IMG/VR virus record: IMGVR_UViG_3300037205_000062 | Span: 1-64,000 of that record | DNA: 64,000 nt | Direction: 5' to 3' (one strand) | Source: a virus | Shown here: in pieces, positions 1 through 57,302 of the stretch | Numbering within the stretch: position 1 is the stretch's first letter | Layout of the letters: each line of letters opens with the position of its first letter | Made by a program: the position numbers and the translations under genes | The notes under the pieces: generated by a model | Database searches by the model: none | Seen by the model: only the letters and a program-made list of their open reading frames with translations | What the model was told of the DNA's origin: nothing

Positions 1-49
1 AAAAAAGACCTTATAATAATTAACTTTAAATTATAACCTTAATGAATTG

Positions 50-70
50 CCCAATTCTATTGGGTTTTTT
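50..70 (+). terminator. Rho-independent terminator
   Basis: A six-base-pair stem (CCCAAT at 50-55, ATTGGG at 59-64) with a 3-nt loop is followed by six T. It probably ends a transcription unit lying to the left of the window. Confidence 0.75.
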
Positions 71-436
71 CATTTGGGTCAATTGAGGAGGTGTTAAATT
101 GAAAGTGGTTAAAATGAAGTTTAAATTAGGTTAAAGAAGTAAGAGGGAGAAAGAGGGGGAAAGAATTAAGATAAATTTTATTTGGTAATTTGTGTTTCTT
201 GTTTACTGTCGTTTATTTATAATAAAAAATAATAAATAAAACTCCCCCCAATTTTCCTTCACCTCCCTACTCATTTCATGCCCCCATTATCTTCTAATTT
301 TATTTTGTTTTTTCTTGTGTGAATTTGGCGCGAAAATGCTCGACAAAAACTAAATCAAACCAACATAAACACTAATCAAATCAATAGGTTTGTCAACCTT
401 TTTATTTATTAAGAAGTTTTTTTGTTGAGATAGTAT
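71..436. other. Non-coding stretch with one possible leader peptide
   Basis: No gene-sized frame is present. A strong Shine-Dalgarno-like GGAGG (87-91) precedes a TTG at 99 that opens only 11 codons (99-134, MKVVKMKFKLG), which could be a leader peptide or chance. The remainder is purine-rich then pyrimidine-rich AT DNA, in which I recognise nothing. Confidence 0.4.
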
Positions 437-465
437 TTGACATGTTTTAGACCTTGTGTTATGGT
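437..465 (+). promoter_or_regulatory. Sigma-70-like promoter with overlapping dyad
   Basis: TTGACA (437-442), a 17-nt spacer and TATGGT (460-465). The dyad AGACC (449-453) / GGTCT (463-467) spans the spacer and -10 box and could be an operator. Transcription should start near 472. Confidence 0.6.
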
Positions 466-471
466 CTTATT

Positions 472-589
472 GAAACGGTAAAATGAACACGGAACGAGAA
501 AGGTACCATATGAAATATTAGCTTAAAATCAAAAAACCTAAATGTGGTCATACACATTAACTTAAATCAAATAAGTTAGTGTGTTTTTG
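472..589 (+). ncRNA. Candidate small RNA, about 115 nt
   Basis: The segment lies between a good promoter (437-465) and a strong terminator. The terminator has 13-nt arms (552-564 and 572-584) that pair fully with one G-U, a 7-nt loop, then a T run. Only a 12-codon frame (483-521) lies inside, preceded by no clear ribosome site. A short stand-alone transcript is therefore likely: either a small RNA or a leader encoding a small peptide. No known RNA family was recognised. The next gene has its own promoter at 641-669, so this is not simply its leader. Confidence 0.5.
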
Positions 590-640
590 TTTTGTATGGT
601 CTTTTTTACCCCTATTCGACACGCGATATTTATATTGATA

Positions 641-669
641 TTGTACAAATGTTGTCTTTTAGGTATAAT
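641..669 (+). promoter_or_regulatory. Sigma-70-like promoter giving a leaderless mRNA
   Basis: TTGTAC (641-646), a 17-nt spacer and a perfect TATAAT (664-669). The ATG at 677 begins only 7 nt after the -10 box, about where RNA would start. A leaderless message is inferred. Confidence 0.65.
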
Positions 670-676
670 ACAATTA

Positions 677-922
677 ATGAATATCCAAATAAACCTAAAT
701 AAAAAACAAATAGCACAAATAGTTCAAGATTGGTTCAGTTCTTCTGATTTGAATAAACGTCATTTTTGGGAACGTGATGAAATAGCTAAAGTAATTAAAA
801 TGAATTTACAAGCAAATAATCAATGGTATAGAAAAAGACGCGGCCCAAATAAGAAAAAATTAAATCAAAATTTAACCCAAATAACACCAAATAATCCTAA
901 AGCAAAAGAAATGGATTTTTAG
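677..922 (+). CDS. Small basic protein, unknown function
   Basis: This 81-residue protein is not recognised. It is rich in Lys, Arg, Asn and Gln, with a basic centre (YRKRRGPNKKK, residues 51-61) that would suit nucleic-acid binding; that is inference only. The frame is open upstream to 581, but the longer start would add a hydrophobic stretch encoded across the promoter at 641-669. The ATG at 677 is therefore preferred, and it lies 7 nt after TATAAT with no room for a ribosome site. It appears to be a single-gene transcription unit. Confidence 0.6.
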   Translation: MNIQINLNKKQIAQIVQDWFSSSDLNKRHFWERDEIAKVIKMNLQANNQWYRKRRGPNKKKLNQNLTQITPNNPKAKEMDF

Positions 923-1015
923 CTAAATAAGTACAAAAGAAGCTAAAATAAATCAAAATAACCCAAATAATCACTAAATAATAATAAATAAGGATTTTTG
1001 AATTGAAATATATCA
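923..1015. repeat. AT-rich stretch with recurring TAAATAA-type words
   Basis: The words CTAAATAA, CAAAATAA, CAAATAA and TAAATAA recur every 10-20 nt across this gap. A similar array is found at 3011-3190. It could be a DNA-unwinding or iteron-like element, or simply biased sequence; no function is proven. Confidence 0.3.
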
Positions 1016-1132
1016 ATAAAGAGGTAAACCTTAAAAATAATATTTTGCTTATATAAATTTAATTGGTGAATAATTAAAAATCTTAAATTGTTATTTTGTC
1101 AATAAAATCTAATTAGAAAAAGAAAAGGGAAT

Positions 1133-1161
1133 TTGACAGGGCGATGGACCTAGTGTATCTT
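1133..1161 (+). promoter_or_regulatory. Sigma-70-like promoter giving a leaderless mRNA
   Basis: Consensus TTGACA (1133-1138), a 17-nt spacer and TATCTT (1156-1161). Six bases later is the ATG at 1168. Confidence 0.6.
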
Positions 1162-1167
1162 GGTAAC

Positions 1168-1374
1168 ATGAAAACATACTATCTATTGAAACTTTATCCT
1201 GCTGGTTCATATTGGTGGGAAAGCCGTAACGAATGTATTGGCGAGACACAAGCGCCAAGCCAACAAAAAGCAATTATATTTTTTCAAAACAATTTTCCTT
1301 TCCTGTTATTAAATAACTATGGCTATTCCGAACTAGGAGATGAAACCTTTTGTATTGCTGAAAAGGCGTTTTAA
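1168..1374 (+). CDS. Small protein, unknown function
   Basis: This 68-residue protein (MKTYYLLKLYPAGSYWWESR at the start) is not recognised. It is rich in aromatic residues and looks like a compact soluble domain. An earlier ATG at 1144 is in frame but lies inside the promoter spacer, so 1168 is chosen. Codon use is less AT-biased than in the virion genes further right. It is followed closely by another small gene at 1399, with which it may be co-transcribed. Confidence 0.6.
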   Translation: MKTYYLLKLYPAGSYWWESRNECIGETQAPSQQKAIIFFQNNFPFLLLNNYGYSELGDETFCIAEKAF

Positions 1375-1398
1375 TCAACAACTTAACTTTTAAATAAA

Positions 1399-1572
1399 AT
1401 GAAACATATTTTAAATACTTTAGCTTTTTATGCTGCCAATAGTGGCTTGCACTCGTTTAGTAAGACGCATAGACCAACACGCCGCGCAATTAAAGCTTTG
1501 GAAAAACGTCAAATGTTACATGTGTCATGGGAAACTAGTCAGGCAGAATTTACACACAGACAAATTAAATAA
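1399..1572 (+). CDS. Small basic protein, unknown function
   Basis: A 57-codon frame starts MKHILNTLAFYAANSGLHSF and has a basic middle (HRPTRRAIKALEKR, residues 25-38), with many His and Arg. It is unrecognised. It starts 24 nt after the stop of the previous gene and has no clear Shine-Dalgarno. The coherent composition and the tight packing of this region support a real gene, but the evidence is modest. Confidence 0.45.
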   Translation: MKHILNTLAFYAANSGLHSFSKTHRPTRRAIKALEKRQMLHVSWETSQAEFTHRQIK

Positions 1573-1574
1573 CT

Positions 1575-1603
1575 ATTGACGGCAAGCTTATCTAGTGGTA
1601 TTG
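1575..1603 (+). promoter_or_regulatory. Possible promoter for the 1655 gene
   Basis: TTGACG (1575-1580), a 17-nt spacer and TATTGT (1598-1603). A second -35-like TTGACA lies at 1609-1614 but lacks a convincing -10 box. Either would give a short leader for the gene at 1655. Confidence 0.4.
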
Positions 1604-1654
1604 TTGGTTTGACATTGCGGACAGCGTAAACAAAGTAAAACAGTAAAAGAATAT

Positions 1655-2089
1655 ATGAAACAAAAACATACAGTTTCAATGGACAAAGCAATCAAACTTG
1701 TCGCCAAAGCCAAATACGAAATTTTAGGCGTATTTGCCGAAGGGGAAAAAAACAGCCATACTCATGATAAAATGTTGGAAAATTTGAATTATAGATTGTA
1801 TGGTATTCGCCAACACAATTTGCCACGTTGGGCGACTTCTGAAATCAATTCTGCTTATAAAATTTTGTTTCAATATTTATATATCTGGCCAAATCCTAAA
1901 GTTGTTTGGCGGCATGTATTTGACGGCGTGCAATACGCCTCATGGAGCGACATGCCCGAAGCAGGCAGAGAATTAGGCCGTCAAGACCAGCTGGTTAGCG
2001 GGCATTTTTGGGCACATAGCAAGCTGCCATTTTCCACACCCGATACGAACTTGGCGCTTGAACAAAGAATTACCGCTAAGAAAAGCTAA
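1655..2089 (+). CDS. Unknown protein, apparently frameshifted near its end
   Basis: This 144-residue protein is not recognised. It is soluble, with many Trp/Tyr/His (ATSEINSAYKILFQYLYIWP around residues 60-80). After the stop at 2087-2089, another frame continues without a start codon to 2169 and reads like genuine protein (EEVQTLQEQKKQFRKYWGDK). Adding one A to the AAAA run at 2081-2084 would join the two parts into a product about 25 residues longer. This may be a recent deletion or a homopolymer sequencing error. The start ATG is the first in frame after the promoter-like boxes at 1575-1614. Confidence 0.6.
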   Translation: MKQKHTVSMDKAIKLVAKAKYEILGVFAEGEKNSHTHDKMLENLNYRLYGIRQHNLPRWATSEINSAYKILFQYLYIWPNPKVVWRHVFDGVQYASWSDMPEAGRELGRQDQLVSGHFWAHSKLPFSTPDTNLALEQRITAKKS

Positions 2090-2186
2090 CCTGCCATGAA
2101 GAGGTGCAAACTCTTCAAGAACAAAAAAAACAATTTAGAAAATATTGGGGCGATAAACTTTCTGTTTAAAAAAAGAAAAATATTAT

Positions 2187-2215
2187 TTGACAAGTTGCCC
2201 CCATTGGGTTAGGTT
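2187..2215 (+). promoter_or_regulatory. Sigma-70-like promoter for the 2249 gene
   Basis: TTGACA (2187-2192), a 17-nt spacer and TAGGTT (2210-2215), in the same TATTTGACA context as the promoter at 437. The start codon lies 33 nt beyond the -10 box. Confidence 0.45.
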
Positions 2216-2248
2216 GAGCGGTAGTAAACAAAACATACAAACAATTTT

Positions 2249-2536
2249 ATGCTAACTGGAAAAAATGATCTTAATGCGGAAGTCGCGAAAATTGACTTTC
2301 AAGAATTGCTTTTGCTGGCAGAACAGGCTGTCGGATTGGCACGCACGGCAGTTGAACGTGACGTGAATCATTTTCAAGAGGCTTGTTTTCGCAACAAAGC
2401 AAATGAAATGAAAAATGAAGCAACACAATTGGTTGAGCATGCGCAAGTCTTGAAGCGTGCCACAGAAACCTTGTTTATGCTGCGGGAGAGTAAAGACAGA
2501 ACAGTATTGACTATTGTAAATCGTTTTTGGAAGTAA
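2249..2536 (+). CDS. Small alpha-helical protein, unknown function
   Basis: This 95-residue protein is not recognised. Almost all of it is predicted helical by eye, with heptad-like hydrophobic spacing (FQELLLLAEQAVGLARTAVE, residues 18-37, and a second helix at about 45-85). A small helical bundle or dimeric regulator would fit, but nothing specific can be claimed. It has its own promoter-like element and is followed 22 nt later by the 2559 gene, probably in the same transcript. Confidence 0.6.
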   Translation: MLTGKNDLNAEVAKIDFQELLLLAEQAVGLARTAVERDVNHFQEACFRNKANEMKNEATQLVEHAQVLKRATETLFMLRESKDRTVLTIVNRFWK

Positions 2537-2558
2537 ATTAATTTAGTTTAAAACCCCT

Positions 2559-2864
2559 ATGTTTAAAATTAATCAAATTGTTTGGGACGCTGAAGCTAAA
2601 GAGTATGTTATGATTACCACTGGCGTCCCCATGGTCGAGGGAAAGCCAGAAGTGAAGCCGACAGAAGCCATAGCATTACGCGTCTGCGGTCTAAAGGACA
2701 CGGGAAAGCCTGTTCTAGCCTTTACCTATCGCCAAGTAAAGCCTGAATGTCTGGCGACTTGTCCTAATTCCGAAGGCGTAAACTGGTTCAGAGATTTTAT
2801 TGGCAAAGACTATACCAATCCCCACTTTCATTTTTTGGGCAAGAGTTTGAAATTTCTTTGTTAG
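2559..2864 (+). CDS. Unknown protein, apparently frameshifted near its end
   Basis: This 101-residue protein is not recognised; it starts MFKINQIVWDAEAKEYVMIT. The last residues after the six-T run at 2831-2836 look non-native. One extra T there would switch to a frame that runs on to 2911 and encodes a convincing amphipathic end (GQEFEISLLDLLLDVEKYRN). Together with the 1655 gene this makes two neighbouring genes with an apparent single-base loss in a homopolymer. The gene is followed by a short dyad (ATATCGT 2913-2919 / ACGATAT 2942-2948) and then a terminator. Confidence 0.55.
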   Translation: MFKINQIVWDAEAKEYVMITTGVPMVEGKPEVKPTEAIALRVCGLKDTGKPVLAFTYRQVKPECLATCPNSEGVNWFRDFIGKDYTNPHFHFLGKSLKFLC

Positions 2865-2975
2865 ACTTATTATTGGACGTTGAAAAATACAGGAACAGTT
2901 TAACAATTTAAAATATCGTCGAAACTTAAACTTTGCGCGTCACGATATAAAATAAGACTGGGAAAGTTAAGAAAA

Positions 2976-3008
2976 TCCAAGTAGAAATACTTGGGTTTTT
3001 TCTTTTTT
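2976..3008 (+). terminator. Rho-independent terminator
   Basis: Arms CCAAGTA (2977-2983) and TACTTGG (2988-2994) close a GAAA tetraloop and are followed by a long T run. It ends the 2249-2911 unit. Confidence 0.85.
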
Positions 3009-3010
3009 GT

Positions 3011-3190
3011 TTTTTTGTAATTAAAATAAACTAAATAATATATATCTAATAAATTCTAAATAAATCATAATACGCTGCAAATAAATAAAAGATTGTAATA
3101 AATAATGAAAGAAATAAAGGGTAATACCAAATAATCTAATAAAGTGCGCAAATAATAGATTAAATAAAGGCAAATATAATATCTAATTAA
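3011..3190. repeat. AT-rich region with many AAATAA words
   Basis: The words TAAATAA, CAAATAA and TAATAAA recur densely here, as at 923-1015. No coding frame is present. An origin, a partition site or a plain AT-rich spacer are all possible. Confidence 0.3.
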
Positions 3191-3436
3191 AAAAAGCTGC
3201 TAATACCTATCGGCCTGGATAAGTTGGGCTTATGAGTTTTACTGGTCATTAGTTCTACTTATAAAAGAGTGCAGGTTATTAGACTAACTTACTTTCCGAC
3301 ACAAAGTGAACGATCCATAAGAAAGTCTTAAACCTCATTTATTGTGCCAACTTTTACATTTTCCAAAAACGAGACATTTATTTAGTTAAATTTTTTTTGT
3401 TCAATTGGCATACTTTTAACGCCCCATGGTGCCCTT
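3191..3436. other. Unexplained non-coding segment of mixed composition
   Basis: This stretch is less AT-biased than the array before it and has no frame of useful length on either strand. It holds a small hairpin (ATAAG / CTTAT around 3218-3233). No tRNA cloverleaf or known riboswitch was recognised. It might be a structured RNA or decayed coding DNA. Confidence 0.3.
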
Positions 3437-3639
3437 TTGATTGAATTTTCGGCCAGCGTATTTGATACGTTAAACATTGGGGATTTAACGATAAAGTGAA
3501 AATTGCCCGCTATGGCGACATGGTCGAAAACAAAAATGTCTCTATGGTCACGCAGACGCGTTTAAACGCTAGGCAATTTTTGCCTGAATTTTGGGTTTTT
3601 TTGATGGATTTTTGCCCCCATATATATATGGCAGACTAA
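3437..3639 (+). pseudogene. Possible frameshifted small gene
   Basis: A TTG-led frame from 3437 encodes MIEFSASVFDTLNIGD and then soon stops. In another frame, the segment from 3490 encodes DKVKIARYGDMVENKNVSM and runs to 3639. Joined, they resemble a small protein built around a GDKVxIARYG core. Several stops and the frame change argue against an active gene. The similarity is my reading of the peptide pattern only. Confidence 0.3.
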
Positions 3640-3664
3640 ACCGCGAAAATTTAATTAAAAAAAA

Positions 3665-3799
3665 ATGAAAAAACTATTTGACGTTTTTAAACCTCATGGT
3701 AAATTCATTGTGTCGGGGGGAGAGAAAACCTCAAAATGTCAGTGTGTTTGTCGGTGTCATAAAACCGACCGCGCGAAAAGGTACGCAAGCAAAACGTGA
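3665..3799 (+). CDS. Cysteine-rich 44-residue protein
   Basis: The frame begins MKKLFDVFKPHGKFIVSGGE and carries a tight cluster CQCVCRCH at residues 27-34, followed by a basic tail. Such clusters can bind zinc or another metal. No known family was recognised and there is no clear ribosome site. The gene sits between non-coding DNA and a terminator-like hairpin at 3908. Confidence 0.4.
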   Translation: MKKLFDVFKPHGKFIVSGGEKTSKCQCVCRCHKTDRAKRYASKT

Positions 3800-3907
3800 A
3801 CATTTTCAGTCTGTCGAAAAGTACTAATAAGACAAAAGGGGTCTTAAGAATATAAAAGGGTTTTTCTTGTGTGTGGATTGAAAACACAATTCGACGCAAG
3901 CGCAAAG

Positions 3908-3935
3908 TTGCCAGTCGTTACTGGCAATTCCTTTT
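3908..3935 (+). terminator. Terminator-like hairpin
   Basis: Perfect 8-nt arms (TTGCCAGT 3908-3915, ACTGGCAA 3920-3927) with a CGTT loop are followed by TTCCTTTT. A second hairpin (CAGATTGAT / ATCAGTCTG, one G-U) follows at 3939-3962. Confidence 0.6.
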
Positions 3936-3997
3936 AGCAGATTGATAAAAAAATCAGTCTGTTAAACGGAATTAAACAATGAAACAGAAAGGTCTTT

Positions 3998-4147
3998 ATG
4001 ACAAAACAGCAAATTGAATTGTTAGCTAAAATTAAAAATGGGGATAGCATTGTCTGTCTTCATTGGTTGGGGCAGGGTTTGACTGATGAATTGTGCGCAA
4101 TTATTCGCGCATTGTTGGATGCGGAAAAAAAGGGAAAAGGAAAGTGA
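3998..4147 (+). CDS. Small protein, unknown function
   Basis: A 49-codon frame starts MTKQQIELLAKIKNGDSIVC and ends in a Lys/Gly-rich tail. A good Shine-Dalgarno-like AAAGG (3987-3991) lies 6 nt before the ATG, which supports the gene despite its size. No family was recognised. It directly precedes the DUF932 gene and may be co-transcribed with it. Confidence 0.5.
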   Translation: MTKQQIELLAKIKNGDSIVCLHWLGQGLTDELCAIIRALLDAEKKGKGK

Positions 4148-4254
4148 TTTGGTTTCTTCATTCTGGTTTCAAATTTTTTTGAAACTAGACTGTAGCAACT
4201 AACAAACAAGAAGTGAAAACTTACTTGGCTACGCAAAAACGAAAGAAAAACGTT

Positions 4255-5550
4255 ATGTCTCATTTAATCATAGCTGGAATTGACCGCGTTTACACACCCG
4301 ATACCGACAAGTGGCGCGATACGTGGCATGGATTGCAAACTACCGTCCCCAATGGCATTGCGCTTGACGGGTCAAACATTGGTGACGTGTTTTGCCCTAT
4401 TGTGCAATGCGGAATGAAGGCAGACTTCAACGCGGAACTTTCAACCGTGCCTGATGATTTGAAAGCCGAATTGAATCTGTCGGATTATAAGCTGATTCTG
4501 GCCGATTGCCGCAGCGGCTTATCAAAATCAGTTCACCCCTTGCATGTCCCCAAAGCTGGTTACGTCATCCATCAAAACAAGGCATTGTTTGATTCAATGG
4601 TGAAAGCTGCTGGCGATGTTTTAGGCGCGAATGGCTTTGACATTGTCACCGTCGGCACGCTAGGAGGTTATACACAATTTTTCGTATCCATTGTGGTAAA
4701 GGGGCATGAAAAGTTTTCGATTGGCAAGCTCGCCAATGGCGCGGAAGATTTTTACGAAAACTTCTTTAATCTCAATTCAAGCCATAATGGCTTGGTTGCT
4801 AGTAACTCGATGCTGTCGAGTGTGCGCATTGTTTGCATGAACACCGTCCAAATGGCAATTGCCGATGCCGAAAGCGCGGGAACTGTTCAAGTCATCAAAC
4901 ATACTGTAAACAGCGAAAGTCTAATCACGCCTCAAACTTTCGCCGATAACTTGAAGTCATGGCTTGAACGCGGTGTCAGTTTTAAGGCGCAATTAACCGC
5001 GCTTGCGAGAACACCAATGACTGTTGAACAGTTTCAATCTTTTGCCGCTGGAGTCTTCACCAATGACGGTAGCGACAAGCTTTCTACGGTGTCGTTTAAT
5101 CGCATTAAAGATATGACGCCTTTATTCCAACGTGGACTTGGCAACTATGGGAAGACCGTCTTGGACGGGATAAACGCATTTACTCAGTATTTCACAAGCG
5201 GAAACGGTGTCGGCAATCCCCGCAATGTGAATGCTAACAAGCGCCTTGCAACTGCCAATTTTGGACAGGGCAATGCATGGAAGTTAACAGCTTTGACACT
5301 GGCCAGCAGTGAAGAAACTTTGCGCGATACAATGAAACGTGGTGATATTCTATACGCCGACAAGCTTCTGTCTGATAGCTTGCCAAAAGGGACGGTGAAT
5401 GCTCCGATCATTGCCGCGCCGAAACCGCAACTGACATTACCGCCTGCCATTGAAATCCAAGCGGAAGTCGTCACGGAAACGGTATCCAGTGCGCCACAAG
5501 CCAAGCCAAGCGCGGCAAAGGGCAAGGGCAAAGGCAAGGGCAAGAAGTAA
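4255..5550 (+). CDS. DUF932-type phage/plasmid protein
   Basis: The product is about 431 residues, the size usual for the DUF932 family found in many phages and plasmids; its biochemical role is not established. Recognisable parts are the early WHGLQT segment, NSHNGLVASNSML followed by VRIVCMNT in the middle (the family typically has a VRIVCxNT-like core), and a later NAFTQYFTSGNG stretch. The C-terminus is an Ala/Pro linker ending in a Lys/Gly-rich tail. An in-frame GTG at 4213 would add 14 residues; the ATG at 4255 gives the more family-like MSHLI start. Base composition is clearly GC-richer than the virion genes, which suggests a different origin. Confidence 0.75.
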   Translation: MSHLIIAGIDRVYTPDTDKWRDTWHGLQTTVPNGIALDGSNIGDVFCPIVQCGMKADFNAELSTVPDDLKAELNLSDYKLILADCRSGLSKSVHPLHVPKAGYVIHQNKALFDSMVKAAGDVLGANGFDIVTVGTLGGYTQFFVSIVVKGHEKFSIGKLANGAEDFYENFFNLNSSHNGLVASNSMLSSVRIVCMNTVQMAIADAESAGTVQVIKHTVNSESLITPQTFADNLKSWLERGVSFKAQLTALARTPMTVEQFQSFAAGVFTNDGSDKLSTVSFNRIKDMTPLFQRGLGNYGKTVLDGINAFTQYFTSGNGVGNPRNVNANKRLATANFGQGNAWKLTALTLASSEETLRDTMKRGDILYADKLLSDSLPKGTVNAPIIAAPKPQLTLPPAIEIQAEVVTETVSSAPQAKPSAAKGKGKGKGKK

Positions 5551-5561
5551 AGATGTTCCAA

Positions 5562-5595
5562 GATAGGTTAGGGCGTACCCTAACCTATCCTTTTA
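5562..5595 (+). terminator. Strong rho-independent terminator
   Basis: Perfect 12-nt arms (5562-5573 and 5578-5589) with a CGTA loop are followed by CTTTT. It ends the DUF932 unit. A second, weaker hairpin follows at 5596-5625. Confidence 0.85.
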
Positions 5596-5663
5596 ATTCA
5601 GTCCATCTTGTTAGGTGGATTGAATGAAGAGAGAAAAGGAAACACCAACAAAAAAGGAAAAAA

Positions 5664-5936
5664 ATGAAAGCAAGTAAGAAGTTGAAATTGGCGATGAACG
5701 GAAACAAAAACGCCAATCGTATCGCCAATGAAACGAAAGCGGAACGGTTGGCGAGGATTGAATTCGCCAAGTCGCATCCTGTCAGTGCGGGAGTTATCCC
5801 AATGGTGGACTATGTTGCGCCAAGCGGGAGTTATGCGCCATCGGCGCGAGCAAGCGAGCCGACAGGCAACCAAGCGCGCTTCGTCGTCAAAGCAATTCGC
5901 GCCATCCAAGCCAACATGGAAGCCAACAAAGTCTAG
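5664..5936 (+). CDS. Small protein, unknown function
   Basis: This 90-residue protein has a basic N-terminal half (MKASKKLKLAMNGNKNANRI, then KAERLARIEFAKSHP) and an Ala/Ser-rich second half. It is unrecognised. A purine-rich AAGG lies just upstream of the ATG. GC-rich codons resemble those of the DUF932 gene, so these genes probably share an origin. An overlapping frame at 5728-5949 was rejected as a shadow. The next gene starts 5 nt after its stop. Confidence 0.55.
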   Translation: MKASKKLKLAMNGNKNANRIANETKAERLARIEFAKSHPVSAGVIPMVDYVAPSGSYAPSARASEPTGNQARFVVKAIRAIQANMEANKV

Positions 5937-5941
5937 ATGTT

Positions 5942-6268
5942 ATGAGTAACCAGCATGATTTACTTAATCCACAAAACGCAACCTTTCGCCTAGCAGTAGT
6001 TGGATGCTGCGAACTGGCTTTTGCGTTTGACGTAGCCGTCCAGTGCAAGCCAGTTGCGCAAGTGCGCCACGCTACAGTGCGGCGGGAAGACATGGGGTCA
6101 AAAGACAATCCACTTGACGTGTTCCGCGTAACCATAGACGGGTTACGTGACACAATTTTTTCGGCGCGTGGCAATGCTCGCTTCGGAACAAGCAAGATTG
6201 ACGACACAAGGCGCGCCATCATCCAACATTATTCCGACAGAGGCTTTCAAGTGGAATATATCTCCTAA
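5942..6268 (+). CDS. Small protein, unknown function
   Basis: This 108-residue protein is not recognised. It contains a hydrophobic core segment (FRLAVVGCCELAFAFDVAV, residues 15-33) and a charged C-terminal half (DTRRAIIQHYSDRGFQVEYIS), resembling a compact alpha/beta domain. It follows the 5664 gene by 5 nt and is probably translated from the same message. The unit ends at the terminator at 6302. Confidence 0.55.
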   Translation: MSNQHDLLNPQNATFRLAVVGCCELAFAFDVAVQCKPVAQVRHATVRREDMGSKDNPLDVFRVTIDGLRDTIFSARGNARFGTSKIDDTRRAIIQHYSDRGFQVEYIS

Positions 6269-6301
6269 AGTCAATAATTATTTTAAAGTATTTTCTACCA
6301 A

Positions 6302-6344
6302 GTTGGCATGACTCCTGATGGCAGGTTTCATGCCAACATTTTTT
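6302..6344 (+). terminator. Rho-independent terminator
   Basis: Perfect 9-nt arms (GTTGGCATG 6302-6310, CATGCCAAC 6329-6337) enclose an 18-nt loop and are followed by a T run. It closes the early-type gene block. An apparent frame starting at 6308 lies inside this stem and was discarded. Confidence 0.8.
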
Positions 6345-6593
6345 GTGCCAAGTGCCCAGTAGCTCGTCTAATTCATGAAAAAATTTGGATTAAAAAATCT
6401 TATGGCGCGGCGGGGGGCATATTTTTCTCTCTTCGCACTTTCAAAAAACCAAAACCACAAAAAAACCAAAGTAGAAAAAATCCCGAAAGACTAAAAATGG
6501 GCGGGGGGGTCTTTTTTTAAAACTTTTTTTAGATTTTAGTCTTACCTATATAAAGCAAAGTCAAAAAAATCGGACGAGGTATTTTTTTCTAAA
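6345..6593. other. Non-coding segment with G-runs and A/T runs
   Basis: Low-complexity DNA with GGCGGGGGGC-like and GGGCGGGGGGG runs, the latter flanked by AAAGAC / GTCTTT that could form a second terminator around 6485-6517. I see no convincing gene. It separates the GC-richer early block from the late block. Confidence 0.4.
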
Positions 6594-8360: not shown

Positions 8361-8367
8361 GTGTAAG
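8361..8367 (+). promoter_or_regulatory. Late motif GTGTAAG
   Basis: A variant of the recurring GTGTAAT element, 28 nt before the ATG of the zinc-ribbon gene. It stands at the head of the sigma-terminase gene run. Confidence 0.5.
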
Positions 8368-8388
8368 ACACATAATATATATTTACAT

Positions 8389-8799
8389 ATGCCCTCATAT
8401 TGTCATAACTGTGGAAAAAAAATGGAACCGATTTGGCGCACATGCCCATTCTGTTCAACTTCATTAGCCTCCCTAAATGAAAGTCCTAAAAACCATAGGA
8501 CACATAATAATAGTCATCAAGAAGCAACTATTGTTGCCGTAGGAGAAGATGATGAAGATTCTAACTATTTAGATCATATTAATAAATTTACGCCTCGCAT
8601 AGATGGTTTACTAGTTGAATTTCAAAAACCTCAATTAAAAGAATCCCTTAGTAATCTCATTAATAATCCTATGGCACCCCCTCCTCCCATTATTCCCAAC
8701 CCTAACGTTCCTCAAAGATCAAAAGAGGAAATATTAAGAGAATTTAAACAAGAAGCTGGGACTCCAGCCCAAAGACTTAATAATGAAGTAAACGGGTAA
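8389..8799 (+). CDS. Zinc-ribbon protein
   Basis: This 136-residue protein has a classical N-terminal zinc ribbon, with Cys5/Cys8 and Cys19/Cys22 (CHNCG...CPFC). An acidic linker (residues 55-63) and a Pro-rich section (MAPPPPIIPNPNVP, about residues 94-107) follow, then a helical C-terminus. Such small ribbons usually mediate protein or nucleic-acid contacts. Placed directly before the sigma-like gene, it could be a transcription partner; that is inference. The start is the first ATG after the GTGTAAG motif. Confidence 0.65.
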   Translation: MPSYCHNCGKKMEPIWRTCPFCSTSLASLNESPKNHRTHNNSHQEATIVAVGEDDEDSNYLDHINKFTPRIDGLLVEFQKPQLKESLSNLINNPMAPPPPIIPNPNVPQRSKEEILREFKQEAGTPAQRLNNEVNG

Positions 8800-8828: not shown

Positions 8829-9512
8829 ATGTCTAAAGACCTAAAAACTTTTCAAGATTATTATCCAATTATCTTAGAAGAAGTACAAAAAAGAAAAAAT
8901 AAATGGACATTGACTAGCGTTCAATCTATGTCCTATGAAGACGTACAACAAATAATTTTATTACATATTTGGCGCAAATTCCATTTGTTTGATCAAACTA
9001 AACCTATACAACCTTGGCTCAATATTATTATTTCCCATCAAATAAAGAATATTATTAGAAATGTATATAGTAATTTTTCAAGACCTTGCCTTAAATGTTA
9101 CGCGGCTATAGATAATAATGGATGTAAAATTTATGGAGAACAATGTTCTACGTGCCCTTTGTACGCCTATTGGAAGAAAAGAAAAGAACCCGCGACTAAT
9201 ATTAAAATGCCTGTTTCTATTGAAAATCATGTTGATGAAGTAAGAAGTATTTTTGATAATGGTTCTAATTTATTTAATGATATTGAAAAGGCTCATGTGG
9301 CTATGAAAAAAATTTTAAAACCAATTGAATACAAAATTTATGAAGGGTTATTTATAAGACAAGAAGATGAGGCTACAGTAGCTAAAAAACTCGGTTATAT
9401 AAGTAACGAGCGTGGACGTGCCCCTGGATATAAACAGGTGAAAAATATTCGCAAAAGCATACTAATAAAATTTAAAAAAGCACTTAAGGAAGGCCTAATT
9501 GATATTTTTTGA
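8829..9512 (+). CDS. Phage sigma-like factor with Cys cluster
   Basis: This 227-residue protein has a sigma-70 region-2-like segment (SYEDVQQIILLHIWRKFHLF, then IQPWLNIIISHQIKNIIRN, residues 36-78). An insertion carries CLKC (87-90), Cys99 and CSTC (106-109), a probable zinc site. The C-terminal region resembles a region-4 helix-turn-helix (DEATVAKKLGY...YKQVKNIRKS, about 170-210). It is likely the factor that directs host RNA polymerase to late promoters, comparable in role to T4 gp55 or SPO1 late sigma. The GTGTAA motifs upstream of virion genes are candidate targets. It overlaps or abuts the next gene. Confidence 0.7.
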   Translation: MSKDLKTFQDYYPIILEEVQKRKNKWTLTSVQSMSYEDVQQIILLHIWRKFHLFDQTKPIQPWLNIIISHQIKNIIRNVYSNFSRPCLKCYAAIDNNGCKIYGEQCSTCPLYAYWKKRKEPATNIKMPVSIENHVDEVRSIFDNGSNLFNDIEKAHVAMKKILKPIEYKIYEGLFIRQEDEATVAKKLGYISNERGRAPGYKQVKNIRKSILIKFKKALKEGLIDIF

Positions 9513-9517
9513 CAAAT

Positions 9518-10603
9518 ATGCCGCTAACTCAAGAACAACAAGATTTAATTATTAGTACATGGAATAAAAGCGAAACCCCATCATTAAAAGAATTAGTATT
9601 ATTAATTTGTGGAGAGGGGATAGATGGTCGTTCGGAATGTGGTCGAGAAATAAAGGCGTTTTTAGCTACTAGAAATCTTCGCGCAAAAGCGTCTTCCGAC
9701 AAAGAAAGTAAAATTGAACAAATTACCTTAACGGATGAACATAAATTATACATCGTCAATAATATTGCTAATAATTCTTCATTAGAAATTGCGCGCACAC
9801 TTTTTAATAATAAAAATCTCACTAATCTTAATGCGGAAACTAGAGTCGTAAGTGAATATGTAAAATCTCTTAATACCAAAGTAATTTATGGTGGCAAAGA
9901 AGCCGCAGAAGAAATTCCTAGCGGCGAATATGAACCACCCAAAAGTTTAGATAAAGCTCTTAAAAAAATTAATGAATATGTTAATTTTGTTAATGGCACC
10001 CAAAACTTAAATGCCCAACAAAAAAAGAATGTAGAAAAACTTATTGAATACCTACATACTTATAGATTTATTAGATTGATGAATACTTTTGAATCTCAAT
10101 ATGATAGAAAAAGCTGCGAAGATGCTTTTATACGTTATACTTATGATAAGCCAGATTTGACGCAAGAAGAAATTGATCAATATATTGAATTAGCTAGTGA
10201 AATTGTTCATGGTATTAGCGTAAAAAGAAGAATGGAGAAGTTAGGCAAACAACAAGATAATATCACGGCTAATGACGCGGATTCACAAAAATATTCTATG
10301 GGGCTTGTTGAAGCTATTGGTAAAGCAAGTACAGAATATCATCAGTGTAGAGATAGACAAAAAAAATTATTAGAAGCTTTGATACAAAAAAGAAGCGCCC
10401 GATTAGATTCTCAAATACAAGAAAGTGCGAGTATTTTAAATTTAGTTCAGATGTGGCGCAATGAAGAAGAGAGGAAAGAGTTATTAAAAATTGCCGAACT
10501 TGAACAAAAAAGTATTGAGGATGAAGTAGAGAGAATTAGTTCTGTATCGGAAATTAAATTACGTCTCCTCGGTTTAAGTAAACAACAAATATTAAATGGA
10601 TAA
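9518..10603 (+). CDS. Unknown helical protein between sigma and terminase
   Basis: The protein is about 361 residues and mostly helical. The N-terminal third holds two similar segments, LTQEQQDLIISTWNKSE with GRSECGREIKAFLATRNL and LTDEHKLYIVNNIANNSSLE with NAETRVVSEYVKSLN. They look like duplicated small helical, DNA-binding-like domains. A long charged coiled-coil-like C-terminus follows (EEERKELLKIAELEQKSIED). Position before TerL could suit a small terminase, but no signature proves it. A TTG at 9509 overlapping the preceding stop is an alternative start. It overlaps the nuclease gene by 8 nt, so the run is translationally coupled. Confidence 0.6.
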   Translation: MPLTQEQQDLIISTWNKSETPSLKELVLLICGEGIDGRSECGREIKAFLATRNLRAKASSDKESKIEQITLTDEHKLYIVNNIANNSSLEIARTLFNNKNLTNLNAETRVVSEYVKSLNTKVIYGGKEAAEEIPSGEYEPPKSLDKALKKINEYVNFVNGTQNLNAQQKKNVEKLIEYLHTYRFIRLMNTFESQYDRKSCEDAFIRYTYDKPDLTQEEIDQYIELASEIVHGISVKRRMEKLGKQQDNITANDADSQKYSMGLVEAIGKASTEYHQCRDRQKKLLEALIQKRSARLDSQIQESASILNLVQMWRNEEERKELLKIAELEQKSIEDEVERISSVSEIKLRLLGLSKQQILNG

Positions 10604-11360
10604 TAACGATAATAAAGAAAATTTTTTAGATTGGATGAAAAAGGTTTCTAAAGATGAAATTAAAACATCATTTATGGAATGGTTAATAGCTCGTCAAGAA
10701 GATAAAAGACTAGTTTATTCTTTAGGACAAGTTGAGCTACGTTCACTTAAAATGCCAGGAATTAATTATTTAAATAATTTATTTGGAAATTATTATGAAG
10801 AATGTAAAGGGTTACAATTTATTAATAAGTATGAGGATTTTAATAAGTGGGGAAAACAAATAGAATTAGATAAAAGAAGAGTAATATATTGTGATAGTCG
10901 AGAACAGAATACTTTGTGTTTTAAAAATACAAAAAGCTTAAGAAAAAAATTAGATTTTGGTGACTACGCTTTCAGTGACGCTCTTTGGAGCGGCAATGTA
11001 GTGATAGAAAGGAAAAGTTTAAATGATCTAATTGGAACTTTATTTTCTGGTTATGATAGGTTTATTAGAGAAATAGAACGCGCGAAAAATGACGACGCTT
11101 GCCTTGTCATTTTAGTAGAATGTAATTTGTCAGATTCTATTGATTATAGAAATAGAAAAACCTTGAATTATCATATAACTATTCCCCCAGAGGTAATTTT
11201 TCATAAAGTCAGAAATCTAATACAACAGTACTCTCATATACAATTTCTTTTCGTTCATTCGCATAATAAAGCGGCAGAAATAGTAGAAAAACTATTTAGT
11301 TTGGGTAGTCAAATTAAAAAATACGATTTACAATTGTTGTATGACTTAAATAAGATATAA
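10596..11360 (+). CDS. ERCC4/XPF-type nuclease
   Basis: This 254-residue protein has the ERCC4 nuclease signature: DSREQ (residues 100-104), GDY (122-124) and IERKSLNDL (137-145), matching the D...GDx(n)ERKxxxD catalytic pattern. The N-terminal 90 residues are a separate helical domain. Enzymes of this fold cut branched or flap DNA. Directly upstream of the terminase, it may trim or resolve replicating DNA before packaging; this is inference. It overlaps the previous gene by 8 nt, and the terminase gene starts 4 nt after its stop. Confidence 0.8.
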   Translation: MDNNDNKENFLDWMKKVSKDEIKTSFMEWLIARQEDKRLVYSLGQVELRSLKMPGINYLNNLFGNYYEECKGLQFINKYEDFNKWGKQIELDKRRVIYCDSREQNTLCFKNTKSLRKKLDFGDYAFSDALWSGNVVIERKSLNDLIGTLFSGYDRFIREIERAKNDDACLVILVECNLSDSIDYRNRKTLNYHITIPPEVIFHKVRNLIQQYSHIQFLFVHSHNKAAEIVEKLFSLGSQIKKYDLQLLYDLNKI

Positions 11361-11363
11361 TTT

Positions 11364-14300
11364 ATGTGGCACGATCCTTTTGAGAAAAGCAATATTATAA
11401 TTCCTAACGTAAATGATGAACTTGCGAAGTTAGTGGGAGAATTATCTGATGATGAAGCTAGAATTACTTTAGCTAAATTTTTATACAAAAATTTAGGCTT
11501 CACTGTGGAGTTGTTAACGGGAATGAAGTTATATCCAGATCAAATTATTAATATAAAAGGTATATTAGAAAGTAACTATTCTCTTTGCGTTTGGGGACGT
11601 GGTATGGGAAAATGCGAATTATATCACAGCGATACACAATTAGTTACTAAAAGATTTGGCTTAATCTCTTTGACCAAATTATTTCCAAATGTAGATTTTT
11701 CCAAACATGATGAATGGGTTGAGATTCCAGAAACAGAACTTTGGAATGGAACAAAATGGGTAAAAATAAATAAAATTTTAATTCAGCAAAAAATACCATC
11801 AACTAGAATAACTACTTCTAATGGATATTCATTGGCTGGTTCTAATAAACATTTAGTTAAGGTATGGGATAAACAAAAATGTGAAGTAGTATGGAAAAGA
11901 TATTATGAATTAAATACTGATGATTATATATGTATAAGTAGAAACAAAAATTCTCTTGATATATTAAACATTCCTACATCTTCACAAGATGTTAAGGAGG
12001 CATATTTAATTGGTTTGTTATTAGGAGATGGTTGTCTTAGAAAAAATAGTTTTTCTATCGTTTCTGCTGATGAGGAAATATTAACTTTTATAGAGACTTT
12101 TAAAGTTGGGAAAAGAATTAAAGACAAACGCAGCAAGGCGATAAATATTAATTTGAGTAATGAATTAAAAGAATATTTATTGAATAAATATAATATAAAA
12201 ATTTGTTTATCCCATGACAAGGAAATCCCTCAATATATTCTTGAGAGTAAATCTTTAATAAAATCGTGTTTACAGGGATTGTTTGACACCGATGGATGTT
12301 CGTATAATAACTGTCTTGGAATTCAATATAGTTCGACATCAATACATTTAATTAAACAAATTCATAATTTACTTAGTTTATTTGGTATTATTGGTGCTAT
12401 TAAAGAAAAGAAGACAAAATCTATTTTTGGCAAAGCGTGGGTTATAAACATCTTTGGAGATAATGTTATTAAATTTTATAATGAAATAGGTTTTAAATTA
12501 ACTAGGAAAACAAATAATATAAAAGAAAATTTATCTAATATTACTAATACAAATAAAGATATTGTGCCAGGAATAAAAGAATACTGCCAAAAGTATATCA
12601 AATCTAATATTCGTTTACCAAAAATTCTATCTGATGAATGGAGAAATAAAATAAGAAGAAAAAATAATCAAATAAACATTTCGTATAATACTCTTAAAAA
12701 ATATAAAGATTTTTTTGTAAAGGCGGGATTGAATCAAACAGAAATACAAAAAATCGACAATATTATTGAGGAAAATTTCTTTTTTGATAAAGTAAAATCT
12801 ATTGAAGAACTTGGACAACAAGATTGTATTGATTTTAACGTGCCAGATGGTCAACATTATTGGTCTAATTGTTTTATTTCCCACAATACTTCTATAGCGG
12901 CTTTAGTAGCAGTTTTGCTATGTATATTTAAACCTAAAACAAATATTTTGATTTGTGGTCCCACTTTTAGAACTAGTAGATTTATATTCAATTATATAGA
13001 AAAAATAGTTGAAAGTAGAGAGGGCAAAATGCTTGCAGCGTGCTTGGGTACAAAAAGTAAAAGAAACGATCAATTTGAATGGAAGATAAATGATGGTAGT
13101 ATTGTAGCCATCCCATTGAATGGTGAAAAAATTCGTGGTTTTCGTGCTAATGTTTTAATTATTGATGAATTCCTTTTAATGCAGCAAGACTTAGTAGAAA
13201 GAGTTTTAATGCCTTATCTTATTGTGCCACAAGATTTAAAAAAGAGACAAAAAATTAGAGCCATAGAAGATAATTTAATTAAAAAGGGTATTATAACCGA
13301 AGAACAGAGAACTAAACCAGTTAATAACGCTAAATTAATAGGATTATCTTCCGCTAGTTTTACGTGTGAATATCTTTATAGAACTTACCAAGATTATATC
13401 AATCAAATTTATAATCCATCTCAATCAGAAGACGCTGGTAAATATTTTGTAAGTCAAATGTCGTGGGATAGTATAAAAGACATTAGCGACCGAATAGATA
13501 AAACAGTTATTGAACAAGCTCAAAGTAATCAAGCGAATCTTGCTAGTTTTAAAAGAGAATACGGGGCCACATTTGTAGATGGTTCAGATGGATATTTCTC
13601 AATGAATAAAATGTTAGCGTGTTCAATTAAAGATGGGGAAGAACCAACCCAACTTCTTAAAGGGGCAAAAAATAAAAAATATCTATTATCAATTGATCCA
13701 AATCTCTCTGGTTCAGAAACTTCTGATCATTTTGCTATGTGTGTTTTAGAGTTAGATGAAACAAAGGAAAAGAAATGTACTGGTACCGTAGTTCATCAAT
13801 ATGCTAAGGCGGGTAAAGACCTAAAAGATCATATTGCTTACTTTTTTTATATTTTTACACATTTTAATATTGAAATAATTATTATAGATAATGCTGGTTA
13901 TCAATTTATTGAATCCGCAAATGAAAGCGAAGCATTTAGAAGCTCAAATATTAATATAAAAATTTTTGAATTTGCCGCCGAAAAGGATGGAGAAGAATAT
14001 GTTCAACAATTAAGAGAGGCGAGAAAAGGTTATAATAAACAAATACAAAGAATTGCTTTTACACAAGTTTTTACTACCGATTTTATAACTAAATCTAATG
14101 AATGGTTACAAGGATGTATAGATTTTAAGAGAGTTTGGTTCAGTAGTCCTATTAAAGCTAATCAAGATTCATTTGATAAAGCTATTCAAGTTAAACTTAA
14201 TGATAATTTAATAGATGATAAATTAGATACTGGCGAAAGTGCTATTGGATATTTTATTGATAATCAAGATACATTGATGAAGCAACTTAGATACGAATGT

Positions 14301-14504
14301 AGCGCAATTGAAGTCACTGTCAATTCTAAAGGAGTACAAACATTTGATTTACCGCAAGTTATAAAACGCGACCAAAGCGCCTCCAGAATGCGCCGTGATA
14401 GTTATACCGCGCTTCTTTTAGCTGCTTGGGGTATGAAAGCTTATAATGATTTATTAAACACTTCAGTAGAACAGTATGAAACATTTGAACCCTTTGTTGT
14501 ATAA
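11364..14504 (+). CDS. terL: Terminase large subunit, intein-containing
   Basis: The precursor is 1,046 residues; removing the 425-residue intein leaves 621, normal for TerL. It packages DNA into the prohead with an ATPase motor and a nuclease. Joined exteins restore a Walker A-like GRGMGKTS (residues 78-83 plus T509). Walker B is VLIIDEF (about 596-602). The nuclease domain shows LLSIDPN (about 773-779) and IIIIDNAGYQ (about 837-846) as acidic strands. The P-loop is unusable until the intein splices out. A TATAAT-like box just before the ATG overlaps the end of the nuclease gene. A GTGTAAT motif follows its stop. Confidence 0.93.
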   Translation: MWHDPFEKSNIIIPNVNDELAKLVGELSDDEARITLAKFLYKNLGFTVELLTGMKLYPDQIINIKGILESNYSLCVWGRGMGKCELYHSDTQLVTKRFGLISLTKLFPNVDFSKHDEWVEIPETELWNGTKWVKINKILIQQKIPSTRITTSNGYSLAGSNKHLVKVWDKQKCEVVWKRYYELNTDDYICISRNKNSLDILNIPTSSQDVKEAYLIGLLLGDGCLRKNSFSIVSADEEILTFIETFKVGKRIKDKRSKAININLSNELKEYLLNKYNIKICLSHDKEIPQYILESKSLIKSCLQGLFDTDGCSYNNCLGIQYSSTSIHLIKQIHNLLSLFGIIGAIKEKKTKSIFGKAWVINIFGDNVIKFYNEIGFKLTRKTNNIKENLSNITNTNKDIVPGIKEYCQKYIKSNIRLPKILSDEWRNKIRRKNNQINISYNTLKKYKDFFVKAGLNQTEIQKIDNIIEENFFFDKVKSIEELGQQDCIDFNVPDGQHYWSNCFISHNTSIAALVAVLLCIFKPKTNILICGPTFRTSRFIFNYIEKIVESREGKMLAACLGTKSKRNDQFEWKINDGSIVAIPLNGEKIRGFRANVLIIDEFLLMQQDLVERVLMPYLIVPQDLKKRQKIRAIEDNLIKKGIITEEQRTKPVNNAKLIGLSSASFTCEYLYRTYQDYINQIYNPSQSEDAGKYFVSQMSWDSIKDISDRIDKTVIEQAQSNQANLASFKREYGATFVDGSDGYFSMNKMLACSIKDGEEPTQLLKGAKNKKYLLSIDPNLSGSETSDHFAMCVLELDETKEKKCTGTVVHQYAKAGKDLKDHIAYFFYIFTHFNIEIIIIDNAGYQFIESANESEAFRSSNINIKIFEFAAEKDGEEYVQQLREARKGYNKQIQRIAFTQVFTTDFITKSNEWLQGCIDFKRVWFSSPIKANQDSFDKAIQVKLNDNLIDDKLDTGESAIGYFIDNQDTLMKQLRYECSAIEVTVNSKGVQTFDLPQVIKRDQSASRMRRDSYTALLLAAWGMKAYNDLLNTSVEQYETFEPFVV
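11613..12887 (+). mobile_element. LAGLIDADG intein in the TerL Walker A loop
   Basis: The 425-residue insertion begins at Cys84 (CELYHSDTQL) and ends SHN508 before Thr509, the standard intein ends (Cys1, penultimate His, terminal Asn, +1 Thr). Block B is visible as GSNKHLVKV. Two LAGLIDADG-type motifs of a homing endonuclease are seen: YLIGLLLGDGCL (about residues 214-225) and CLQGLFDTDGCS (about 302-313). The ends and both endonuclease motifs look intact, so splicing and homing are likely active. The insertion point, within GK|T of a P-loop, is a classic intein site. Codon use is even more AT-rich than the flanking exteins. Confidence 0.92.
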
Positions 14505-14507
14505 AAA

Positions 14508-14514
14508 GTGTAAT
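14508..14514 (+). promoter_or_regulatory. Late motif GTGTAAT
   Basis: Lies just after the terminase stop and 27 nt before the ATG at 14535. It would drive the HNH relic and the collagen-like gene. Confidence 0.55.
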
Positions 14515-17672: not shown

Positions 17673-17679
17673 GTGTAAT
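17673..17679 (+). promoter_or_regulatory. Late motif GTGTAAT
   Basis: Lies 22 nt before the portal ATG, just beyond the antisense HNH gene, so the portal has its own late start signal. Confidence 0.6.
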
Positions 17680-20460: not shown

Positions 20461-20467
20461 GTGTAAT
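20461..20467 (+). promoter_or_regulatory. Late motif GTGTAAT
   Basis: Starts directly after the stop codon of the 19774 gene and 15 nt before the ATG at 20476. Confidence 0.55.
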
Positions 20468-24367: not shown

Positions 24368-24374
24368 GTGTAAT
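24368..24374 (+). promoter_or_regulatory. Late motif GTGTAAT
   Basis: Lies 16 nt before the ATG of the protease/scaffold gene. It is the only such motif before the major capsid gene, so it probably drives the protease-decoration-capsid run. Confidence 0.6.
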
Positions 24375-28600: not shown

Positions 28601-28607
28601 GTGTAAT
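28601..28607 (+). promoter_or_regulatory. Late motif GTGTAAT for the fibre cluster
   Basis: Immediately follows the terminator at 28567-28600 and lies 58 nt before the fibre gene at 28659, consistent with a promoter rather than a ribosome site. Confidence 0.65.
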
Positions 28608-35873: not shown

Positions 35874-35880
35874 GTGTAAT
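35874..35880 (+). promoter_or_regulatory. Late motif GTGTAAT
   Basis: Lies 18 nt before the ATG at 35892, directly after the beta-helix gene. Confidence 0.55.
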
Positions 35881-36222: not shown

Positions 36223-36229
36223 GTGTAAT
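36223..36229 (+). promoter_or_regulatory. Late motif GTGTAAT
   Basis: Lies 14 nt before the ATG at 36237, the shortest spacing observed. Transcription could begin very close to the start codon. Confidence 0.55.
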
Positions 36230-40464: not shown

Positions 40465-40471
40465 GTGTAAT
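40465..40471 (+). promoter_or_regulatory. Late motif GTGTAAT
   Basis: Lies 15 nt before the ATG at 40480, at the head of the connector gene run. Confidence 0.6.
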
Positions 40472-44811: not shown

Positions 44812-44818
44812 GTGTAAG
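44812..44818 (+). promoter_or_regulatory. Late motif GTGTAAG with conserved leader
   Basis: Follows the terminator at once. Twelve nt after its start is TTGGTAAAAGG, the same leader at the same spacing as at 57296. Confidence 0.6.
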
Positions 44819-46952: not shown

Positions 46953-46959
46953 GTGTAAT
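46953..46959 (+). promoter_or_regulatory. Late motif GTGTAAT
   Basis: Lies 34 nt before the tape-measure ATG and is followed by AGTAAAGG, similar to the leaders at 44824 and 57308. Confidence 0.55.
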
Positions 46960-57295: not shown

Positions 57296-57302
57296 GTGTA
57301 AT
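57296..57302 (+). promoter_or_regulatory. Late motif GTGTAAT with conserved leader
   Basis: Followed after 12 nt (start to start) by TTGGTAAAAGG, exactly as at 44812. It drives the hub and fibre genes at the right end of the window. Confidence 0.6.

Follow-up and report, generated by a model that had tools for sequence, protein, structure and literature searches.

A sigma factor of ECF-like build that carries a four-cysteine module, and its candidate late promoter GTGTAAT, in a clade of uncultured phages

ECF (group IV) sigma factors, exemplified by SigL and SigH of M. tuberculosis, consist of a sigma-2 domain, a linker, and a sigma-4 domain, with neither sigma-1 nor sigma-3. In CorE and the ECF44–ECF238 factors, the linker between these domains carries a metal-type cysteine motif, and the CXC motif of the CorE linker is essential (PMC8999054). 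Among phages, the gp55/gp33/gp45 system of T4 provides a late sigma logic based on -10-only promoters (PMC7892883), in which gp55 has no sigma-4 domain and the flap contact is supplied by gp33. For the group 2 jumbo phage sigmas, the part of the source considered here describes minimal single-HTH and RpoD-like types and makes no mention of one with a Cys module (PMC7824862). The protein described here, sigma-Cys (227 aa; 8829–9512, + strand), has the two-domain build of the ECF factors and, behind sigma-2, a cysteine module of its own.

The gene lies in a 64-kb stretch of DNA (the window), which is the first part of a virus record of 162,911 bases (162.9 kb). The virus can be assigned to the tailed phages because it encodes a 2,300-aa tape-measure protein, tail-fibre proteins, and a terminase. 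At the start of the window (1–6500), coding is sparse, GC content is higher (up to 48%), and a DUF932 protein is encoded at 4213–5550, in contrast with the structural region behind it, which is compact and AT-rich. An open reading frame within the latter (30657–32258) matches PHROG 8480, a lysophospholipase L1-like esterase (E 3.5e-42). Profile searches of IMG/VR revealed several hundred relatives of sigma-Cys in environmental DNA, with at least 387 and at least 590 confirmed in two separate scans, and the family comparison rests on 283 loci with 230 distinct sequences. The contigs of four more distant homologues are classed with bacterial MAGs (Flavobacteriales, Halobacteriovorax, and others); on one MAG-filed contig, L091, the gene block is of the same phage type as elsewhere and continues through terminase and portal. 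The single sigma-Cys protein found no relative among PDB sequences, and three homologues used as queries found no isolated-phage relative among 50,697 phage records, the lone match being insignificant (E 0.6).

The original prediction, made from the sequence of the window, described a region-2-like segment joined to a region-4-like HTH through a cysteine-bearing insertion, and the open reading frame has exactly this layout. The Pfam model Sigma70_r2 is matched by all 62 homologues of a diverse alignment (A5; best 3.1e-8). In the window protein the match covers residues 33–77, scoring 21.9 bits (E 1.5e-4) on the protein alone, slightly below the 24-bit cut-off, and 24.2 bits, above it, in a six-frame genome search. 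The NCBIfam sigma70-ECF model (TIGR02937) is likewise matched by 40 of 40 members of a first alignment (best 1.7e-11). Region 4 is weaker by sequence: Sigma70_r4_2 matches 6 of the 62 homologues (best 9.8e-5), and no region 4 is detectable by sequence in this sigma-Cys protein itself. AlphaFold modeling with the 62 diverse sequences yields both domains, including the sigma-2 fold on which the original prediction depended, placed with confidence and in agreement with conservation at about residues 8–83 (8850–9077, +; pLDDT ~95 in most blocks). A poorly predicted linker (~121–147) then leads to sigma-4 at residues 148–220 (9270–9488, +; pLDDT mostly 86–96), whose HTH turn is lengthened (~189–200; pLDDT 65), a feature also visible in the alignment. 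Foldseek searches with the predicted structures return sigma factors as the best annotated PDB matches, mostly of ECF type for the first model, at modest E-values (~0.01) and probabilities of up to 1.0; global TM-scores are low because the orientation between the two domains is free. Both by profile and by predicted structure, then, the best matches are ECF factors, and on this basis sigma-Cys belongs to the sigma-70 superfamily and in its build most resembles the ECF type (sigma-2 and sigma-4 only), with core RNA polymerase binding and transcription initiation as its predicted role. Profile comparison had been proposed against gp55 families as well; the hhalign probability for sigma-Cys and gp55 is 0.2%, so that no relation to the T4 factor is detectable by sequence and any likeness is a functional one. 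The putative -10 recognition helix of sigma-2 comprises residues 60–83, in which P62, W63, Q71, N74, R77, N78, and Y80 are invariant across the 230 sequences.

The Cys module (residues 84–120; 9078–9188, +) follows directly after this helix. It contains C87, C90, C99, C106, and C109, the CLKC, Cys99, and CSTC of the original prediction. C87, C90, C99, and C109 (codons at 9087, 9096, 9123, and 9153) are kept in 230 of 230 distinct homologues, including divergent members in which the C90–C99 and C99–C109 loops vary in length. C106 (codon at 9144), the first cysteine of CSTC, is Cys in 101 of the 230 and mostly Ser, Asp, or Asn elsewhere. A four-ligand site built from CLKC and CSTC is ruled out by the absence of C106 from over half of the family, and the ligands are assigned instead to C87, C90, C99, and C109; the predicted cluster thus holds as a set of four invariant cysteines, and CSTC as a conserved ligand pair does not. 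Judged from this invariance and from the model, this is a probable C4 site that is very likely to bind zinc. Most of the module had pLDDT values of 41–49 in a first AlphaFold model based on 40 similar sequences, rising to 70–86 with the 62 diverse ones. The second model contains a short helix at CLKC (86–89), short strands, and a helix (110–118) starting just past C109, a predicted order that is treble-clef-like.

A zinc-type site in the linker had been called atypical of sigma factors, an assessment that the comparison supports, with CorE, of different layout, as the nearest precedent. The essential CXC motif of CorE (PMC8999054) suggests by analogy that the module could sense metal or redox state and thereby turn sigma-Cys on. 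This interpretation is hardly probable, however, given that sigma-Cys has no C-terminal Cys-rich domain, that an operon of structural genes offers no reason for metal sensing, and that four wholly invariant cysteines in a small ordered module are a better fit to structural zinc.

Sigma-Cys lies in a fixed gene block. Immediately 5′, in 244 of 257 testable loci, is the gene for a zinc-ribbon protein (136 aa; 8389–8799, +; Pfam Zn_Ribbon_1, 25.5 bits, above cut-off), with cysteines at positions 5, 8, 19, and 22 and an acidic, probably disordered tail. Immediately 3′, in 271 of 278 testable loci, lies the gene for a 361-aa helical protein (9518–10603, +), which matched no Pfam or PHROG family and may be a candidate terminase small subunit or transcription cofactor. 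An ERCC4-type nuclease gene comes next (10596–11360, +; Pfam ERCC4, E 6e-13; in place in 264 of 272 loci), and the block continues to the terminase large subunit (11364–14504, +; in place in 202 of 203 testable loci). The Walker A motif of this terminase (GMGK|C...HN|T) is interrupted by a LAGLIDADG intein (~11613–12887; Pfam LAGLIDADG_3 and Intein_splicing), absent from the relative L002, comparison with which set its boundaries. The fixed order of the block argues that sigma-Cys and the zinc-ribbon protein are functionally linked, and it connects sigma-Cys with genes for packaging, in keeping with the role proposed for it below. The two-protein system originally proposed thus survives as a tight gene pair and a candidate complex, with the zinc-ribbon protein as probable co-factor and partner.

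The promoter evidence centers on GTGTAAT. The window contains 14 copies against 11.9 expected, an overall count not above chance. Ten of the 14 nevertheless fall in the 60 nt ahead of a gene start on the same strand, positions that make up 2.1% of the total (P ~2e-14), and among 210 anagrams no other exceeds 5 such placements. In nearly every clade, even those at ~40% identity, GTGTAA or GTGTAAT also ranks first or close to first among upstream k-mers, and an unsupervised motif search recovered GTGTAA independently in five clades and GTGTA in a sixth; in clade 3, GTGTAT is used as often as GTGTAA. Putative promoters on the + strand of the window are found at 14508–14514, 17673–17679, and 57296–57302, at 46953–46959 before the tape-measure gene, and, with an ATG close by, at 20461–20467 (8 nt on), 24368–24374 (9 nt), 35874–35880 (11 nt), 36223–36229 (7 nt), and 40465–40471 (8 nt). 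A further copy (28601–28607, +) and a GTGTAAG (44812–44818, +) each stand immediately past a terminator-like hairpin.

The end of GTGTAAT usually lies 7–13 nt before the start codon, a spacing that would also suit a signal for translation or a binding site for an activator in place of a -10 element. Several observations render this alternative very improbable. GTGTAAT precedes 52–63% of genes that follow a 15–80-nt gap and 45% of those at other, mostly divergent, junctions, versus 1.7% of abutting genes; Shine-Dalgarno-like motifs behave the other way round, with 33% at abutting genes and 8–16% after gaps. Since it occurs after gaps and rarely at abutting genes, GTGTAAT appears to start transcription units and not to serve as a per-gene translation signal, and its position after terminators is in keeping with this role. 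In addition, a T followed by purine-rich positions is present 7–8 nt past the element, also at genes whose start codon lies 16 nt or more downstream, as for a pyrimidine-purine start signal. No information is visible upstream at the position of a -35 signal. Together, the gap preference, the spacing, the start-like signal, and the missing -35 signal suggest promoters that consist of a -10 element only and first-gene mRNAs with almost no leader. Judged by its placement, GTGTAAT is a real promoter element, and late mRNAs are probably nearly leaderless.

Two promoter classes are prominent in the whole record, CTTGACA and GTGTAAT. The former is of sigma-70 type, with TANNNT-like hexamers at sigma-70 spacing in several examples, and is found at 1 of 49 genes in the structural region versus 21 of 131 outside. 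GTGTAAT precedes 10 of 40 late-window genes versus 7 of 131 elsewhere in the same genome (P 0.001), a bias that, with its placement upstream of gene starts, agrees with its earlier designation as a late-type promoter.

The operon of sigma-Cys may itself be under such control in some lineages. A GTGTAAG behind which the zinc-ribbon gene was said to lie is present at 8361–8367 (+), 21 nt before the start codon, and is a candidate promoter for the zinc-ribbon/sigma-Cys operon. Among the upstream sequences listed, GTGTAAT or GTGTAAC closely precedes the zinc-ribbon start codon in clade 8, TATAAT is followed by GTGTAAG in clade 6, the element in clade 4 is mostly TGGTATAAT or similar, and the largest clade mostly has TATAAT instead. 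Because the element differs by clade, self-control of sigma-Cys would be lineage-dependent; the self-regulation originally suggested is consistent with the window and with clade 8 but not with most of the largest clade. In clade 8 relatives such as L157 and L133, a conserved TACACTTTTTTTGAAAAA block lies upstream of the GTGTAAT promoter of the zinc-ribbon gene.

What reads GTGTAAT is a separate question. Profile searches of 8 records detected no beta or beta′ subunit and no YonO/RdRP-type polymerase, and a phage RNA polymerase was dropped as the reader on this ground; the searches for T7-type and Perkons polymerases were made without a positive control. Because no beta or beta′ subunit and no YonO-type polymerase was found in the records searched, host RNA polymerase is probably used. 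Sigma-Cys is the natural candidate for the factor that directs it, since it follows GTGTAAT in its distribution over the clades and since its -10 helix varies as little as GTGTAAT does. On balance, it is probably the late sigma factor for GTGTAAT.

The main competitor is a second conserved phage sigma of ~200 aa, encoded in the window's own genome (G000) at L085:5222–5842 (−), with orthologues in G001, G008, G009, and G018–G023; the window genome's own copy is missed by Pfam sigma models in a single-protein scan. Were this factor to read GTGTAAT, sigma-Cys would serve another promoter set or act as a co-factor. Both sigmas are present in 10 of 10 records of at least 100 kb that were first compared and in 6 of another 7 measuring 118 kb or more, the exception being G030 (136.8 kb), in which the second sigma was found and sigma-Cys was not, and contigs with the second sigma are rich in GTGTAAT (105 copies versus 8.7 expected). 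Because the two factors occur together in nearly all large relatives examined for both, co-occurrence does not decide between them. The second sigma diverges faster, however, with 32–37% identity between phages versus 44–49% for sigma-Cys in comparable pairs, even though the motif hardly varies. The HTH of the second sigma appears ordinary, so that a -35 box would be expected at its promoters, whereas GTGTAAT promoters have none, and the gene was not seen adjoining the structural genes. Nor was a third promoter motif found that sigma-Cys could read instead. Assignment of GTGTAAT to the second sigma is therefore unlikely, and a role as a middle-gene sigma is possible for this protein.

A third, ordinary ECF sigma in the same genome (L085:11949–12596, +) matches Sigma70_r2 and r4 above cut-off and was not found in four other large records compared. 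A sigma-70-like factor of 270–285 aa, with the best Sigma70_r2 score of all (L188:14426–15283, +; L183:9378–10199, −), was seen, of all records compared, in G001 and G008 alone.

Variation in the motif does not yet map onto sigma-Cys. The few homologue-bearing contigs without clear GTGTAA (L117, L079, and clade 4) show no obvious matching change in sigma-2. K73 was rejected as a specificity residue: L117, which has no GTGTAA, carries Ser73, but clade 1 (24 sequences, Thr73) is GTGTAA-rich. Covariation of sigma and motif was likewise set aside, as clade 3 uses GTGTAT but no matching diagnostic change was found in its recognition helix. L117 (G012; 42 kb) and L079 (G013) encode a clear sigma-Cys and have no clear GTGTAA promoters, with GTGTATT possible in L079; promoter specificity may have shifted in both.

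In the mechanism proposed here, phage-encoded sigma-Cys would steer the RNA polymerase of the host toward late genes, with sigma-2 reading GTGTAAT as a -10-only element. The four-Cys zinc module, behind the -10 recognition helix at the position of sigma-3 in larger sigma factors, would stabilize that surface and may touch the GTG half of GTGTAAT or the polymerase. Sigma-4 would dock on the beta flap with no requirement for a -35 box, and transcription would start ~7–8 nt past GTGTAAT, giving most late mRNAs leaders of roughly 0–5 nt. The upstream zinc-ribbon protein would be the probable co-factor. What the data establish is the gene, its fold class, the four invariant cysteines, the gene pairing, and the promoter element with its spacing and late-gene bias; from these we infer metal binding, the identity of the reader, where transcripts start, what the zinc-ribbon protein does, and when the system acts. 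The complete picture, an undescribed phage sigma family in which a treble-clef-like zinc module would replace sigma-3 and the -35 contact, the promoter would be a single 7-base GTGTAAT, late mRNAs would be nearly leaderless, and a zinc-ribbon protein would be the partner, is offered tentatively, as something short of an even prospect.

The -10-only promoters, as in T4 late genes (PMC7892883), raise the further possibility that sigma-Cys works like gp55, as a late sigma, weak by itself, that depends on a sliding clamp bound by its C-terminal tail and on help from a co-activator, either the zinc-ribbon protein or the 361-aa one. Many sigma-Cys C-termini do follow the pattern acidic-I/V/L-D/E-I/F/W-L/F/I/Y (EIDFL, EIDIF), which resembles the clamp-binding LDFLYE of gp55. 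This tail is not conserved in clades 1–3, however, and neither a T4-type nor a bacterial-type clamp appears in the records searched (PF02916 in 0 of 12, PF00712 in 0 of 6), although divergent clamps could be missed and the T4-type search had only a weak control. Coupling to a sliding clamp was dropped on these two grounds. With the predicted sigma-4 domain that gp55 lacks and the negligible hhalign probability also counting against it, a gp55-like mode of action is improbable.

If correct, the mechanism proposed for sigma-Cys would be a clear case of a two-domain sigma factor that dispenses with the -35 box and would illustrate how a sigma factor can accommodate a zinc module. It would also provide a late-promoter signature, GTGTAAT mostly 7–13 nt before the start codon, with which to annotate several hundred contigs of uncultured aquatic phages. 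Because factor, partner, and promoter are all short and self-contained, the proposal is directly testable in vitro.

In the literature searched, no paper relevant to the GTGTAAT motif turned up, nor anything equivalent to a sigma factor with such a zinc-type linker. Relative to ECF factors, sigma-Cys has a ~30-residue C4 Cys module behind sigma-2 and a lengthened turn in the sigma-4 HTH; its proposed promoters are -10-only with no -35, and no anti-sigma is seen. CorE combines CXC with a C-terminal Cys-rich domain, neither of which is found in sigma-Cys, so membership in the CorE-like ECF group does not apply; sigma-Cys has the spacing CxxC-x(8 or more)-C-x(9 or more)-C with no C-terminal Cys. 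The settings differ as well, CorE belonging to a bacterial metal response and sigma-Cys to a phage late operon. With T4 gp55/gp33/gp45, sigma-Cys shares a phage late sigma logic with a -10-only promoter and, in many members, a tail like the clamp motif, but gp55 has no Cys module and depends on gp33 for the flap contact, whereas sigma-Cys has its own predicted sigma-4. The proposal for sigma-Cys is similar, finally, to what the part of the source considered here reports for group 2 jumbo phage sigmas, which recruit host RNA polymerase without a phage polymerase (PMC7824862).
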